This document shows, one piece after another, positions 3,885 to 9,869 of a stretch of 24,161 nucleotides of DNA. Made by a program: the position numbers and the translations under genes. The notes below the pieces were generated by a model. The model saw only the letters and a program-made list of their open reading frames with translations. It was not told the origin of the DNA and made no database searches. The DNA is from a virus, in the IMG/VR virus record IMGVR_UViG_3300042316_000377, positions 1-24,161 of that record; one strand, given 5' to 3'. Every line of letters starts with the position of its first letter. Within the stretch, counting starts at the first letter, position 1.

Positions 3885-4345
3885 GCCGAGCCCGAGCGCT
3901 CCGGGGCGGTGCGTGCTGCGATGCGCTCGAGGAGCGGCGCCGTCTCGACGCCCTGATGCACGTGCGTCGTGACGGTGACCGATGGCTCGCGCGGGTACTC
4001 GTCCGGGGATGCGCGCTCGAGGAGCCACGCGGCGGCCTTCCAGTCGCCCCCGGCCGATGCGCCGCGCACGTGGTCGAGCAGTACGGCATTCGCGCGCGCG
4101 CGCGCCTGTGCCCATCGGGCCGCGAAAGTCGCGAAAGGCTCCTCGCCACGCTCGCCCCGCGCCACCCAGTCCTGCACGGTGCTCTTGACCACGCCTGCCC
4201 GAGCGCACGCAGCGCCGACGAAGCCGAGCGACTCCATCTCGGCGCAGAGTCGGTCCATGACCTCGGGCGTGCACTTCGTGGGCGCCCCCTGCTCGTGCGT
4301 AGGCGGAGGACGCCGCGCGCCCTTCTTCGCCCTCGGCGCGCTCAC
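3881..4345 (-). CDS. terS: Terminase small subunit
   Basis: This 154-aa protein is the probable DNA-recognition subunit of the packaging motor. It has a basic N-terminus, then a helix-turn-helix 'GFVGAACARAGVVKSTVQDW' near residues 41-60, followed by 'FATFAARWAQARARANAVLLDHVRG', typical of TerS proteins that bind pac/cos DNA and oligomerise through a helical segment. I place the start at GTG 4345, which overlaps the preceding stop as GTGA. A longer in-frame reading would run deep into the upstream gene as a low-complexity Gly/Ala tail and is rejected. It lies directly upstream of terL with an ATGA overlap. Confidence 0.85.
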   Translation of the reverse strand: MSAPRAKKGARRPPPTHEQGAPTKCTPEVMDRLCAEMESLGFVGAACARAGVVKSTVQDWVARGERGEEPFATFAARWAQARARANAVLLDHVRGASAGGDWKAAAWLLERASPDEYPREPSVTVTTHVHQGVETAPLLERIAARTAPERSGSA

Positions 4346-4773
4346 ACTGCCACCCGCTGCGGACCCACCGGCCACGCCGCCATCTGCTCCCGTGCGACCC
4401 GCGCCACCTCGAGGATGACGCTCGCCCGCTGCGCTGCGCCCCAATCGTAGACCACCGGCGCCCCGCCGACCGGCCCCGTCCGCGTCCACCGCCCGAGCAG
4501 CACAGCCGGAACGCCTCGGTCTCGCGCAGCTCGCAGCACATGGTCGTGGAGCAGTCGCGTCGGGTCGTCCTCGGCGGCGCTCATGCCCTCGCCCGTGTCC
4601 TCGGCGACGAGGAGCAGCGTCGGGGGCGGCTGCACGTCGAGCAGCCGCAGCACGTCGAGCGTCGTCGACAGCGCGATGGTGACGTTGGCGCCGAGGTGTC
4701 GAGCTGCCGCGATGAGCAGCGCACGGGGCGCCTCGGTCTCGCCATAGATGACGACGGTCATCGGCATGGTCAT
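4342..4773 (-). CDS. Unknown alpha/beta (receiver- or Rossmann-like) protein before terS
   Basis: This 143-aa protein is not recognised. It begins 'MTMPMTVVIYGETEAPRAL' and alternates hydrophobic strands and helices ('TVVIYG', 'NVTIALS', 'TLLLVAED', 'VPAVLLG', 'GAPVVYDW'), the rhythm of a flavodoxin- or receiver-like fold. A phospho-acceptor site cannot be assigned. Three closely spaced ATGs exist; 4773 is preferred because a GGGAG lies four bases upstream and because it overlaps the previous stop as ATGA. It links the lysis group to the terminase genes and ends in a GTGA overlap with terS. Confidence 0.6.
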   Translation of the reverse strand: MTMPMTVVIYGETEAPRALLIAAARHLGANVTIALSTTLDVLRLLDVQPPPTLLLVAEDTGEGMSAAEDDPTRLLHDHVLRAARDRGVPAVLLGRWTRTGPVGGAPVVYDWGAAQRASVILEVARVAREQMAAWPVGPQRVAV

Positions 4774-5066
4774 CCGTCTCCCTGTGTACCTGGCGCGGGG
4801 GGAATCCCGCCCAAGTGGTGGATCATCGATTGCTGCGTGAGGTCGCGTCGTAGGCCGTGCATGCGCTCCGAGCATACCCGCTGGCTCACCCGCTCCCCAT
4901 CGATGCGCGTAACCGACGCCTCGATTCGGACGCAGTCCGCCGTGAGCCGCTCGACCATGAGGCGCGTGCGCTCCATCGCCGAGGCCATGCGCCACAGGAT
5001 TCCGCCGAGCGTGCACAGGGCGCCGATGAGACCGAGCCCAACGGCGACCTCGGACGCACTACCCAC
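4770..5066 (-). CDS. Small membrane protein with N-terminal TM segment and coiled coil (holin/i-spanin candidate)
   Basis: This 98-aa protein has one strong membrane segment, 'VAVGLGLIGALCTLGGILWRM' (about residues 7-27), followed by a charged helical region 'ERTRLMVERLTADCVRIEA' likely to form a coiled coil. That topology suits an i-spanin or a holin accessory in a lysis cassette, but no family signature decides between them. The GTG at 5066 overlaps the preceding TAG by 8 nt; an alternative in-frame TTG at 5132 would add a Gly/Ser-rich stretch and has no ribosome binding site. It ends in an ATGA overlap with the next gene. Confidence 0.55.
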   Translation of the reverse strand: MGSASEVAVGLGLIGALCTLGGILWRMASAMERTRLMVERLTADCVRIEASVTRIDGERVSQRVCSERMHGLRRDLTQQSMIHHLGGIPPAPGTQGDG

Positions 5067-5253
5067 GGGCGCACACCCACAAAGGCTGCCGCCGGCACCG
5101 CGAGGCGTGGAGCCTGACGACGGGGGCGACAATGCAGCGGTACACGTCAGCGACCGCGCAGAGCGAGCGCATGACCGTCTCGCACGCAGGCATCCCCCAC
5201 GCCCGAGCAGACCACCACGTCGGGGGCCTGCGCTTGCGCGGTACCAGCGGCAT
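5059..5253 (-). CDS. Small basic Cys-containing protein, unknown
   Basis: This 64-aa frame starts 'MPLVPRKRRPPTWW', is strongly basic and has a moderately hydrophobic stretch 'LCAVADVYRCIVAPVVRL'. I do not recognise it. The support is positional: the ATG at 5253 overlaps the upstream stop as TGATG, and its own stop overlaps the next start by 8 nt, so it fills the gap exactly in a coupled chain. It may be a small membrane-associated lysis factor. It could also be a spurious frame in GC-rich DNA if the next gene starts at the TTG at 5132. Confidence 0.4.
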   Translation of the reverse strand: MPLVPRKRRPPTWWSARAWGMPACETVMRSLCAVADVYRCIVAPVVRLHASRCRRQPLWVCARG

Positions 5254-6591: not shown

Positions 6592-7043
6592 GGCTGCGTC
6601 CGATACGTGCCGCACACCTCGAGGTCAGCCGTCCCGCTCCCGACCGAGCGCAGTGACACGGCCTGCGCCGTCACACCGCCCGCGACCAGGCCACGCGTCG
6701 ACCACACCCGAGCGCCACCCGCCACGATGCGGGGCGCGTGAGTCGTCGCGCCGCAGCCTGCCGAGGCGCCCATGCACAGGACCGCATTGTCGCCGGTGCC
6801 CGCGGTCTCGCGCGACACCACCGACACCTCCTGAAGATACAGCCCCGCCGCGAGCGCGGTGCCCGTGGCCGGGTCGTAGAGGTCGTCACTCGTGAGCTCG
6901 CCCCATGACCCCGTCGCAGCGGCGACGACGACGCACCCGTATCGAGTGCCGTAGACGCCCTGCGAATCCTGCGCCTGCGCGCGGCTCATCAGCCCGCCAT
7001 TGCACGCGATGAACGCGATGACCCACCAGAGAAACGCTCGCAT
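6588..7043 (-). CDS. Exported Cys-containing protein of unknown function
   Basis: This 151-aa protein carries a clear signal peptide, 'MRAFLWWVIAFIACNGGLMSRAQA', with a probable signal peptidase I site after AQA. The mature region is beta-rich and has cysteines in 'RYGCVVV', 'VLCMGASAGCG' and 'LEVCGTYR' that could pair in the periplasm. I do not recognise the family. The ATG at 7043 overlaps the endolysin stop as TGATG, and the stop forms a GTGA overlap with the lectin-like gene. It is the first of three consecutive exported products behind the endolysin. Confidence 0.6.
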   Translation of the reverse strand: MRAFLWWVIAFIACNGGLMSRAQAQDSQGVYGTRYGCVVVAAATGSWGELTSDDLYDPATGTALAAGLYLQEVSVVSRETAGTGDNAVLCMGASAGCGATTHAPRIVAGGARVWSTRGLVAGGVTAQAVSLRSVGSGTADLEVCGTYRTQP

Positions 7044-7567
7044 CAGCCGACCTCCATCCTTGTGCGGATTGCCTGCCGGGCGACCTGCGCCGCAGCGGTG
7101 ACCCGCGCGTAATCTGCATCCGAGACGCCCGGCCCGCGCCACGTGGCGACCCGGCCTCGATTGTCCACGTGGGCGAAATCCGGGTAGACCCCGACGCCGC
7201 CCGCCGGGATGACGCCCTGCCCCATCAGCCGCAGCGCGAGGATGCCCAGCTCGAGCGCCGACATGAACGCCGTGGCGAGGTCGGCCGCTGCGTCGTCGCC
7301 ACGCTCGCGCGGGTCGGCCCGGTCCTCGGGCGGTACGTGCCGGCTCGACTTCGCGGTCCTCGAGTGCGCGCGCTCGCCCGAGACGATGCGCACCGCGCCC
7401 CCGACCTCGTCGCGGATGCGCTGCACGGTGCCGGTGACGAGGCGCTGATACCGCGCCCGAGACCCGGCGCGCAGCCATCGGCGACCGTGGAGCCCGGGAC
7501 CGCTGCGACGGTCCATCAGTTCCCACGCCGCATAGTTCATGGACAAGCGTTCCGTCGCGTCGCTCAT
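7043..7567 (-). CDS. Endolysin, peptidase M15-like (D-Ala-D-Ala carboxypeptidase fold)
   Basis: This 174-aa protein matches the zinc peptidase M15 pattern of phage endolysins that cut peptidoglycan cross-links. It has 'IVSGERAHS' (61-69), 'SSRH' with His77, 'GDDAAADL' with Asp96, then 'GGVGVYPDFAHVDNRG' (123-138) with His133 and Asp135, and 'VATWRG'. The spacing between His77 and Asp96 is longer than the usual S-x-H-x6-D, because of a charged insert. There is no signal peptide, so release depends on a holin. The ATG at 7567 overlaps the stop of the second frame in the methyltransferase region as ATGA; an in-frame GTG at 7585 is the alternative start. Confidence 0.8.
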   Translation of the reverse strand: MSDATERLSMNYAAWELMDRRSGPGLHGRRWLRAGSRARYQRLVTGTVQRIRDEVGGAVRIVSGERAHSRTAKSSRHVPPEDRADPRERGDDAAADLATAFMSALELGILALRLMGQGVIPAGGVGVYPDFAHVDNRGRVATWRGPGVSDADYARVTAAAQVARQAIRTRMEVG

Positions 7568-8619
7568 GTGGGCATCGTACCACACGGCGATGCCGGAATC
7601 ACCCGCCCCGCGCCCGGGTCAGGAGTTGCCGCCACGCTTCCGCCGCGCAGGCAGGTACTTGCCCATTGCCGAGGCATCGCAGGCGGTCCACCCGAGAGGC
7701 ACCCCATGAGCCACTCGACCCACGTCGGGTTCAGCGGCCCACCAGCTACCGCATCCAGCGGGAGCGCGTTGCGCCTGTGTTGCGAAGGACTGCCGTTGTT
7801 GCTCGCGTTGTTCGCCGTCGGCGTAGGTAGCATCGACCGCGCCACCGCCGACGAGAGCCGCAGGTCGCCCTTCCCGCCCGCCTGATTCGGGCCGCCGTGA
7901 CTGCCGTCCGTTGCCAGCGGCGTGGGCCACATTGCCCGCCGCGCCATCGTGTCGAGACTCGGGGCGCCCGCCGTCCGATACGTCGACCCGTCGGGCCGGT
8001 GCCCGTTGTTGCGTGTGCCGTAGGGTGTCGAGGTCGGCGTCGGAAACTGCGCGGCCCATGTCGCGAGCCCGTCCCCGCTTTTGTCGGACAGCCCGGCCTT
8101 GTTGTAGTTGCCTTTGACCGTCGGCGTCGGGCAGTTGAGCCAATATCCAGATTCGCTGTCGCCTGTGCGGGGCGCCAACATCGGACGCTCCGAGCACGCC
8201 CCACTCTGCATCGTACCCGAGCGCGGCCAGGTCACCGAGCACGGTGCCGAGTCCTCGAGTAACGAGAGCTGGAGAGTTTTCCACGAAGACGTAGCGTGGT
8301 CGAACCTCGCCAATGATGCGGGCCATCTCTCGCCAGAGTCCCGAGCGCGCGCCGTCGATGCCGGCGCCGGAGCCTGCGACGCTGATGTCCTGACACGGGA
8401 AGCCGCCAGAGACGACATCCACGAGTCCAGCCCACGGTCTCCCGTCGAAGGTTGACACGTCATCCCACACGGGGAAGGGCTCAAGGCTCGCGTCGTCCTG
8501 TCGGGCCATGAGCACGGCGCGGGCGTATCGGTCGAGCTCAACGGCGCAGACGGTTCGCCATCCGAGCTCAAGGCCGCCGAGAATGCCGCCCCCAGCGCCC
8601 GCGAAAAGTGCCAGCTCAT
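7564..8619 (-). CDS. Second same-strand frame across the methyltransferase gene (methyltransferase-associated family)
   Basis: This 351-aa reading is in the +1 frame relative to the C5 methyltransferase and overlaps it for about 1 kb. It contains 'TSSWKTLQLSLLED', 'VTWPRSGTMQSG', four Pro-Thr-Pro repeats ('CPTPTVKGNYNKAG', 'FPTPTSTPYG', 'MWPTPLATDG', 'MLPTPTANNASNNG') and 'LNPTWVEWLMG'. From memory these are hallmarks of a phage protein family annotated as hypothetical or methyltransferase-related. The ATG at 8619 lies four bases inside the methyltransferase start. The stop forms an ATGA overlap with the endolysin ATG, the junction style of real genes here. Either it is translated, or it records a frame change in the ancestor. 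Function unknown. Confidence 0.5.
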   Translation of the reverse strand: MSWHFSRALGAAFSAALSSDGEPSAPLSSTDTPAPCSWPDRTTRALSPSPCGMTCQPSTGDRGLDSWMSSLAASRVRTSASQAPAPASTARARDSGERWPASLARFDHATSSWKTLQLSLLEDSAPCSVTWPRSGTMQSGACSERPMLAPRTGDSESGYWLNCPTPTVKGNYNKAGLSDKSGDGLATWAAQFPTPTSTPYGTRNNGHRPDGSTYRTAGAPSLDTMARRAMWPTPLATDGSHGGPNQAGGKGDLRLSSAVARSMLPTPTANNASNNGSPSQHRRNALPLDAVAGGPLNPTWVEWLMGCLSGGPPAMPRQWASTCLRGGSVAATPDPGAGRVIPASPCGTMPT

Positions 8620-8623
8620 TCAC
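7619..8623 (-). CDS. C5 cytosine DNA methyltransferase
   Basis: This 334-aa frame encodes an m5C methyltransferase that likely protects phage DNA from host restriction. It shows motif I 'LFAGAGGG' (6-13), motif IV 'SGGFPCQDIS' with catalytic Cys77, motif VI 'FVENSP' (113-118) and motif VIII 'RRQRIWILA' (144-152). A variable target-recognition region follows, with 'DADG'-type repeats, then 'WWAAEPDVGRVAHGVP'. The expected C-terminal motif X (a GNAVP-like string) is not intact; the tail reads 'LGWTACDASAMGKYLPARRKRGG' instead. The GTG at 8623 overlaps the upstream stop as GTGA. The stop at 7619 leaves a 51-nt gap to the endolysin, unlike neighbouring junctions. The degenerate tail leaves activity uncertain. 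Confidence 0.85.
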   Translation of the reverse strand: MNELALFAGAGGGILGGLELGWRTVCAVELDRYARAVLMARQDDASLEPFPVWDDVSTFDGRPWAGLVDVVSGGFPCQDISVAGSGAGIDGARSGLWREMARIIGEVRPRYVFVENSPALVTRGLGTVLGDLAALGYDAEWGVLGASDVGAPHRRQRIWILAQLPDADGQRQLQQGRAVRQKRGRARDMGRAVSDADLDTLRHTQQRAPARRVDVSDGGRPESRHDGAAGNVAHAAGNGRQSRRPESGGREGRPAALVGGGAVDATYADGEQREQQRQSFATQAQRAPAGCGSWWAAEPDVGRVAHGVPLGWTACDASAMGKYLPARRKRGGNS

Positions 8624-9312
8624 ACACCGCCCCGCGCCGTCTCTGCCCGCTCCACGCGCACCTGGTCGAGCGCGATGAGCCTCGCATCGCCCCGGTGCAC
8701 CGCGCGCCCGAGGTGGTCATCGACCGTGGACGGAGGCGCCTTGCCTGGCCCGCCGCGCATCAGCCACGCGTCACGGGCGGCACGCTCGCGGCAGAGCGTC
8801 AGGTGTCGCGCGACGTAATCCACCGGGTCGGCCGTGCGCTTGCGTAGATGCTTCGGCTCAGTCGATGAGGCGCTGTGCGCGACGCCGTCAGCCTCCGCGA
8901 GAGACGCCGCGATGGGCGCGTCTCGCCGCGAGTCGAGGAGCGCGGAGAGGGTCGCCTGCATCGTGCACTCGTCGTCGCGCAGGTTCGCCGCGGTCAACGC
9001 CAACCCCATCGCGTGTGTGACGTGCAGGTCAAGACGCCCGGCAGGCTCGTGCACTCGGCTGAACCGAGTCTGTGCCACATCCATGCTCCGCAGCAGCGTT
9101 ACGACTGAATGACGGTGCGCGCGAAGATGCGGAACGATATACCCGAGCGCACGCAGCGCCTCGGCGACCTCCTCGCGCACGACCTGCGCGCCGCTCCACA
9201 TGCGCACGCCGCGACGCCGCGACGCCGTCGACTCCTGCCGGTCGGCTATCCAGTCGCGCTGGAGCATCGTGGGTCGGTAGATGACCCGCACGTCGAGACC
9301 GTCGCCCCTCAT
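8620..9312 (-). CDS. Unknown 230-aa protein upstream of the methyltransferase
   Basis: I do not recognise this protein. It is basic and mostly helical, with 'LQRDWIADRQESTASRRRG' near the N-terminus and a helical centre 'VREEVAEALRALGYIVPHLRAH', then 'ATLSALLDSRRDAPIAASLAEADG' and a basic C-terminus. No nuclease, ATPase or zinc motif is evident. The ATG at 9312 overlaps the RecU-like stop as ATGA, and an upstream in-frame extension is rejected because it would lie inside that gene. Its stop overlaps the methyltransferase GTG. It may work with the adjacent nuclease or methyltransferase, which is inference from position. Confidence 0.6.
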   Translation of the reverse strand: MRGDGLDVRVIYRPTMLQRDWIADRQESTASRRRGVRMWSGAQVVREEVAEALRALGYIVPHLRAHRHSVVTLLRSMDVAQTRFSRVHEPAGRLDLHVTHAMGLALTAANLRDDECTMQATLSALLDSRRDAPIAASLAEADGVAHSASSTEPKHLRKRTADPVDYVARHLTLCRERAARDAWLMRGGPGKAPPSTVDDHLGRAVHRGDARLIALDQVRVERAETARGGV

Positions 9313-9869
9313 GCCACACCCCCCATCGACGGCACCCACGCCGCCCCGTCCATCATCCGCGCCCATGCGGCGCACTCGTCATGCCCCACGCTCGCGACGC
9401 CTCGGTCACGCAGCGCGTGCAGCGTCGACCACTCCCACAGCGACCCCCACGGCGACTGCCCCGGAGGCATCCACCACAGCGCCACGAGCGCGTGCGCGTC
9501 CATCGCGTCAGCCGCTGCGAGCGTCGACCACTGCGGCCCGTGCGGCGGTCGAGCGCCGAGCGCGGATGCGAAGTCCCACCGCTCGGTGACGCAGGTCTTG
9601 GCCTCGAGGTACACGGCCTCGGGCGGCCCGCCCCGCACGATGCTGCCCACGTAGTCGACGCTGGCCCGCGCAGCCCACGCCGCGGGAAACGTGGTGCGCC
9701 CCCGCGCGTCCTGCCGCGTCGGACCCATCACGAGCGCCTCGGTCGGCACCTGGACCATAAGCCCGGCCCGCGTGACGCGGAGGTGCGCGTGATACGCATC
9801 GAGCCGCGCCTGCCACGCGAGGCCGAGGGCGCGAGACGTGCGCCCGGTCGAGGACTTGGTCTCGGTCAT
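9309..9869 (-). CDS. RecU-like PD-(D/E)xK nuclease (Holliday junction resolvase candidate)
   Basis: This 186-aa protein has the core of a RecU/PD-(D/E)xK nuclease: Asp72 in 'SVDYVGSIV', then 'AVYLEAKTCV' with Glu89 and Lys91, and a following 'PHGPQWSTL' with Gln113 where RecU proteins carry a conserved Gln. Such enzymes cut four-way junctions or process recombination ends and would finish replication/recombination intermediates before packaging. It lies in the replication operon behind the DnaC-like loader. The ATG at 9869 overlaps the upstream stop as ATGA. A different PD-(D/E)xK subfamily remains possible; the nuclease fold is more certain than the substrate. Confidence 0.65.
   Translation of the reverse strand: MTETKSSTGRTSRALGLAWQARLDAYHAHLRVTRAGLMVQVPTEALVMGPTRQDARGRTTFPAAWAARASVDYVGSIVRGGPPEAVYLEAKTCVTERWDFASALGARPPHGPQWSTLAAADAMDAHALVALWWMPPGQSPWGSLWEWSTLHALRDRGVASVGHDECAAWARMMDGAAWVPSMGGVA

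Follow-up and report, generated by a model that had tools for sequence, protein, structure and literature searches.

The window analysed here is the whole stretch of 24,161 nucleotides that forms positions 1 to 24,161 of the IMG/VR virus record IMGVR_UViG_3300042316_000377. On its minus strand, two long reading frames occupy nearly the same DNA. Frame A extends from a GTG at 8623 to a stop at 7619 (334 amino acids), and frame B, read in the +1 frame of the same strand, extends from an ATG at 8619 to a stop at 7564 (351 amino acids). The locus comprises the following features.

7619..8623, minus strand: frame A, a C5-cytosine methyltransferase and putative alpha subunit, assigned by its PF00145 and phrog_363 matches.
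7564..8619, minus strand: frame B, a putative beta subunit of the phrog_1008 family, in the +1 frame and nested over the whole of A, supported by the phrog_1008 match, conservation, and profile and dN/dS tests.
8617..8623, minus strand: the nested starts GTGAATG, kept as xTGAATGAG in nearly all of 79 relatives.
7735..8130, minus strand: a putative target-recognition region with four PTPT-type repeats, read in B, placed by dual-frame rates and by homology to an in-frame segment of single-chain enzymes.
7702..7734, minus strand: the core of motif IX, LNPTWVEWLMG, read in frame B; it varies little or not at all among 66 B proteins and aligns with EWMMGWPxGW of single-chain enzymes.
7696..7702, minus strand: the site of a one-nucleotide frameshift relative to the intact loci L042 and L050, located by three-frame comparison.
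7599..7697, minus strand: SRVDRLRCLGNGQVPACAAEAWRQLL, read in the third frame and containing methyltransferase motif X, identified by three-frame translation; in relatives this motif belongs to frame A, from which it is displaced here.

Frame A matches PF00145 in Pfam (E 4.8e-32, residues 4-182) and phrog_363 in PHROG (E 1.7e-59). Motifs I-VIII lie within its first ~165 codons (about 8623-8128) and include both catalytic signatures, PC in motif IV (GGFPCQ) and ENV/ENS in motif VI (VENS), so that the C5-methyltransferase motifs recognised in an initial annotation of this DNA are borne out. Frame B matches phrog_1008, which is labelled 'DNA methyltransferase' (E 4.2e-25). It contains the string WPRSGTMQSG, four PTP motifs (PTPTVKG, PTPTSTP, PTPLATD and PTPTANN) and LNPTWVEWLMG, and it joins the downstream open reading frame in an ATGA overlap. 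The strings, the overlap, the frame coordinates and the start offset had all been listed in that annotation and are all found in the sequence. Within GTGAATG, A's GTG at 8623 is followed by the TGA of an upstream frame at 8622-8620 and by B's ATG at 8619. This upstream frame (8620-9375, minus strand, 251 amino acids) has no match in Pfam or PHROG. The downstream frame (7043-7585, minus strand), called an endolysin, matches PHROG only weakly (phrog_894, E 0.0011) and Pfam not at all.

The window copy of the gene pair carries a one-nucleotide frameshift right after LNPTWVEWLMG, which three-frame comparison also places in L011/L040 and L012/L041. The nearest relatives, L042 and L050, lack it: their A reads VAHGVA(S/A)RVDRL...GNGQVP and their B reads LMGWPLGWT.... 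Past the frameshift, A of the window reads a B-type tail and stops at 7619, while B runs on into the endolysin frame. Both A's early stop and the ATGA junction thus result from the frameshift; they had been taken as arguments for a gene pair and, although present, they lose that value. Motif X (GNxV) is absent from frame A in the window, where it lies in the third frame, and is found in frame A in L042, L050, L044 and L119. As the frameshift is common to two contigs, it may be a real mutation. With motif X out of A's frame and B's normal tail replaced, the window copy may be inactive.

The GC content of the window is about 70%, a composition at which long open frames arise often, and several spurious open reading frames overlap the locus. 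Frame B could accordingly be a non-coding by-product of A's composition, an explanation which the shuffle and substitution tests contradict for the family and which can be virtually dismissed. When A's protein is held fixed and synonymous codons are permuted, a B frame as long as that of the window appears in 0.4% of the shuffles, and in <0.1% for most relatives, AT-richer ones included. Of 80 IMG/VR loci collected with frame A as the sole query, 79 were analysed; selection on A only also answers the concern that a biased choice of loci produced the open B. B is open over >85% of A in 78 of these 79 loci (median 98.7%), and the third frame is open across the gene in none. Summed over the loci, B holds 140 stops, nearly all of them at the ends, against 539 expected from shuffles, and the third frame holds 1522. 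Since many of the loci have 44-55% GC, base composition does not explain the open frame: there, the third frame has about 20 stops whereas B remains open. In nearly all 79 loci, B's ATG lies 4 nt past A's first codon, with a TGA in the B frame just before it.

Conservation of the B protein was assessed with profiles trained on loci <72% identical in A and with 100 A-preserving shuffles per locus. The B profile score exceeds all 100 shuffles in 14 of 14 loci, with z values of 10-16 overall and about 5-12 for each half. That conservation of B is merely induced by A is ruled out by these A-preserving shuffles together with a recognition region in which A is neutral (see the rates below). The overlap of A and B is real, with very high confidence.

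Homologues of B are numerous. Searches by tblastn retrieve 12 phage records with B of the window and 116 with B of an intact relative (Acinetobacter phage ABMM1, L001). The match falls in the +1 frame of the annotated frame A gene in ABMM1, Salmonella phage S9-5, the Manatee Spring phages, Microcystis phage Mel-JY01 and others. In Pseudomonas phage phPA-G, B alone is annotated, as hypothetical. Both frames are annotated in the Paenibacillus phages Diva and Jacopo, and gp50 of Diva bears the remark 'g49 internal gene'. Annotation therefore mostly captures one frame, which is A in most records and B in phPA-G. When the B alignment is run against prokaryote genomes, one per species, 385 relatives are recovered, and among the best 80 of these an overlapping A frame with methyltransferase motifs is present in nearly all. 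The titles among the same best 80 include Pseudomonas, Acinetobacter, Halomonas, Akkermansiaceae, Phycisphaerales, Geothrix, Desulfuromonadales, Nitrospiria, Patescibacteria and Spirochaetia, whose prophage status was not determined. The overlapping arrangement is preserved in dozens of other phages and across many bacterial genomes from several phyla.

Substitution rates in the two frames were estimated from 22 disjoint pairs of 74-97% nucleotide identity with an OLGenie-like procedure (our own simplified script). In the catalytic region, dNN/dSN of A is 0.11 (0.09-0.13) and dNN/dNS of B is 0.57 (0.46-0.70). In the recognition region, A is neutral at 0.92 (0.77-1.09) and B is constrained at 0.29 (0.25-0.34), and the region of motif IX is constrained in both frames (A 0.52, B 0.42). 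The control value, taken from the third frame, is 1.43 in the recognition region and 1.33 over B residues 3-100. Over B residues 101-158 it falls to 0.59 against 0.51 for B, so that B cannot be separated there by this measure. The constrained frame hence switches along the gene: it is A in the catalytic part, where constraint on B is weak, then B in the recognition region, and both at motif IX. Both frames are conserved and under selection. The initial annotation had proposed a genuine overlapping gene pair or an old frame switch, to be refuted if B had no database homologues and substitution patterns constrained A alone; the rates give the opposite, both frames being constrained in different parts of the gene, and the pair is further supported by B's open frame in 78 of 79 loci and by its homologues.

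What does B contribute? The homologue search that had been suggested leads to the phrog_1008 family, which matches 66 of 66 aligned B proteins as well as the C-terminal half of the Seagreen enzyme and the separate C-terminal frames of Dorothy and phiBT1. The string LNPxWVEWLMG near B's end is invariant or nearly so in the 66 proteins. In actinophages, single-chain enzymes carry a PTPT segment and EWMMGWPxGW between motifs VIII and X (Seagreen L128, prophi91-4 L006 and Gudmit L009), and the B alignment matches this PTPT and motif IX segment with a probability of 97.2 (E 4.3e-11). The longer form LNPxWVEWLMGFPxGW resembles motif IX of M.HhaI; this likeness and its position before motif X in the single chains lead us to identify it as motif IX. 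Pfam and NCBIfam give no match for B and recognise no motif IX in it, and the best hit of a PDB profile search with B (E 0.017) is an uncharacterized protein, aligned outside the motif IX region. Going by its PHROG label, B might be a complete methyltransferase, a possibility which is rejected because Pfam finds no catalytic part in B. An AlphaFold2 model of a single-chain relative adopts the C5 methyltransferase fold (best matches M.HhaI and M.HaeIII, E about 1e-12); its C-terminal part is confident and the repeats are unmodelled. B had been described as similar to phage proteins of unknown role. The phage homologues exist, but the role can now be refined to the recognition region and motif IX of A's enzyme.

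It could also be argued that B is a separate functional protein, for instance a regulator or an anti-restriction factor, which overlaps a self-sufficient methyltransferase A. B does have its own start, its N-terminal ~100 residues have no counterpart in the single-chain enzymes, and AlphaFold2 of B alone gives only a low-confidence model (mean pLDDT 55, pTM 0.25) without any fold match. We consider a separate protein improbable, as the C-terminal half of B is homologous to the recognition and motif IX part of the single chains, and the middle of A is neutral, which leaves A without a conserved recognition region. A natural fusion also speaks against it. In L035 (IMG/VR 3300024518_002752, 1640-2995), one chain holds an A-like part with motif X, in which merely a short linker follows motif VIII, and then the PTPT repeats and motif IX. 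To judge from this order of parts, L035 is a permuted C5 methyltransferase, a natural fusion of A-like and B-like parts. A search for further tandem fusions like L035 found none.

Other relatives divide the enzyme differently. In L253 (a Spirochaetia MAG, 3998-5167), B reaches into motif X and A goes no further than motif VIII. The halves are separate and in the +1 frame in Dorothy, Float294, Samy, L141 and L152. L014 (2389-3213 and 2640-3254) displays a frame swap: A's start runs on in-frame into B sequence and the rest of A lies in another frame. In Streptomyces phage phiBT1 (L127, 2050-2982), gp9.1 is annotated 'DNA methylase may be inactive', and an unannotated downstream frame in +1 contains PTPT repeats, motif IX and motif X, so this enzyme may be split rather than dead.

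We regard it as highly probable that A and B are the two subunits of one split C5-cytosine DNA methyltransferase whose genes overlap almost fully, although no protein, methylation or binding data are available. Motifs I-VIII, for AdoMet binding and catalysis, would come from A (alpha), which in intact relatives would also provide motif X; B (beta) would supply the target-recognition region with the PTPT repeats and motif IX. With starts 4 nt apart, ribosomes could initiate either subunit from one site. A Shine-Dalgarno-like stretch is located upstream in 44 of 79 loci; the distance from its end to the start is mostly 2-8 nt for A and so 6-12 nt for B, a spacing at which one ribosome-binding site could serve both. 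In 60 of the 79, the end of an upstream open frame falls between -20 and +8 relative to A's start. Once made, the two chains would join to form a single enzyme, and its methylation of phage DNA would most likely protect against host restriction. Translation from both starts, heterodimer assembly, recognition by B, the protective role and the need for both chains are all inferred.

B might instead be made mainly by ribosomal frameshifting from A, as a fused catalytic-recognition chain, and not from its own ATG. The joined order of catalytic part, PTPT repeats and motif IX does work in the single-chain relatives, and the halves of Dorothy and Float294 stand in the +1 frame. This explanation is nevertheless very doubtful: the openness and conservation of B reach back to its own ATG, which lies far upstream of where a shift would be useful and has a stop just before it; a second shift back would be needed for motif X; and in class-2 relatives an AGGA-type site precedes an internal ATG by 6-7 nt.

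In DNA phages and bacteria, it is considered rare for two constrained genes to overlap at length on the same strand. The overlap of A and B covers a whole gene of ~1 kb and is conserved in numerous phages, and also in bacterial genomes that span several phyla. Because neutrality of one frame coincides exactly with constraint on the other, the division of labour is directly testable and phrog_1008 can be given a role. If the two-subunit reading is true, A cloned on its own from loci of this kind would yield a dead enzyme. It also appears likely that the loci represent a large, mostly unannotated viral class of fully overlapping subunits, in which the specificity subunit is read in +1 across the whole catalytic gene, whose own frame is carried along neutrally through the recognition region; the N-terminal ~100 residues of B would then have arisen as a protein segment through overprinting of a catalytic domain. 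A literature search found no paper describing the overlapping arrangement in phages, subscription journals being largely outside its reach. The arrangement is widespread, and the split-enzyme explanation for it is strong but needs biochemistry.

Among the closest known systems is M.EcoHK31I, whose smaller gene, as Lee, Kam and Shaw are said to have described in 1995, lies inside the larger one in another frame. In M.EcoHK31I (YGGCCR), motifs I-VIII and X reside in one polypeptide and motif IX in the other, and the recognition domain is predicted in the larger subunit, not in the smaller one (PMC3404938). The loci described here likewise have the second polypeptide encoded within the first gene and in a different frame, B being nested in A in 78 of 79 A-selected relatives. 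They also share the motif layout (the sequences themselves were not compared), with motif IX in B alone and motifs I-VIII and X in A in the relatives; in the window, motif X is out of frame. Unlike the smaller gene of M.EcoHK31I, B spans nearly the whole A gene and starts 4 nt after it, selection puts the recognition region in B rather than in the larger subunit, and the locus is phage-borne with no restriction gene seen.

M.AquI is naturally split into alpha and beta, and the second chain contributes all or part of its recognition region and motif IX (PMC3404938). It differs from A and B in that motif X belongs to the smaller subunit and half of the variable region to the larger; L253, in which B has captured motif X, resembles it. 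Among phages, Diva gp49/gp50 and Jacopo gp56/gp57 are similar, as their internal frame matches phrog_1008 (E 1.1e-73). Unlike B of the window, this internal frame starts about 180-200 nt inside the gene, and Diva gp50 has no assigned function. Finally, the single-chain actinophage enzymes (Seagreen gp68, prophi91-4 gp24 and Gudmit gp58) share the catalytic part, the PTPT repeats and motifs IX and X but, unlike A and B, carry everything in one frame and one chain.
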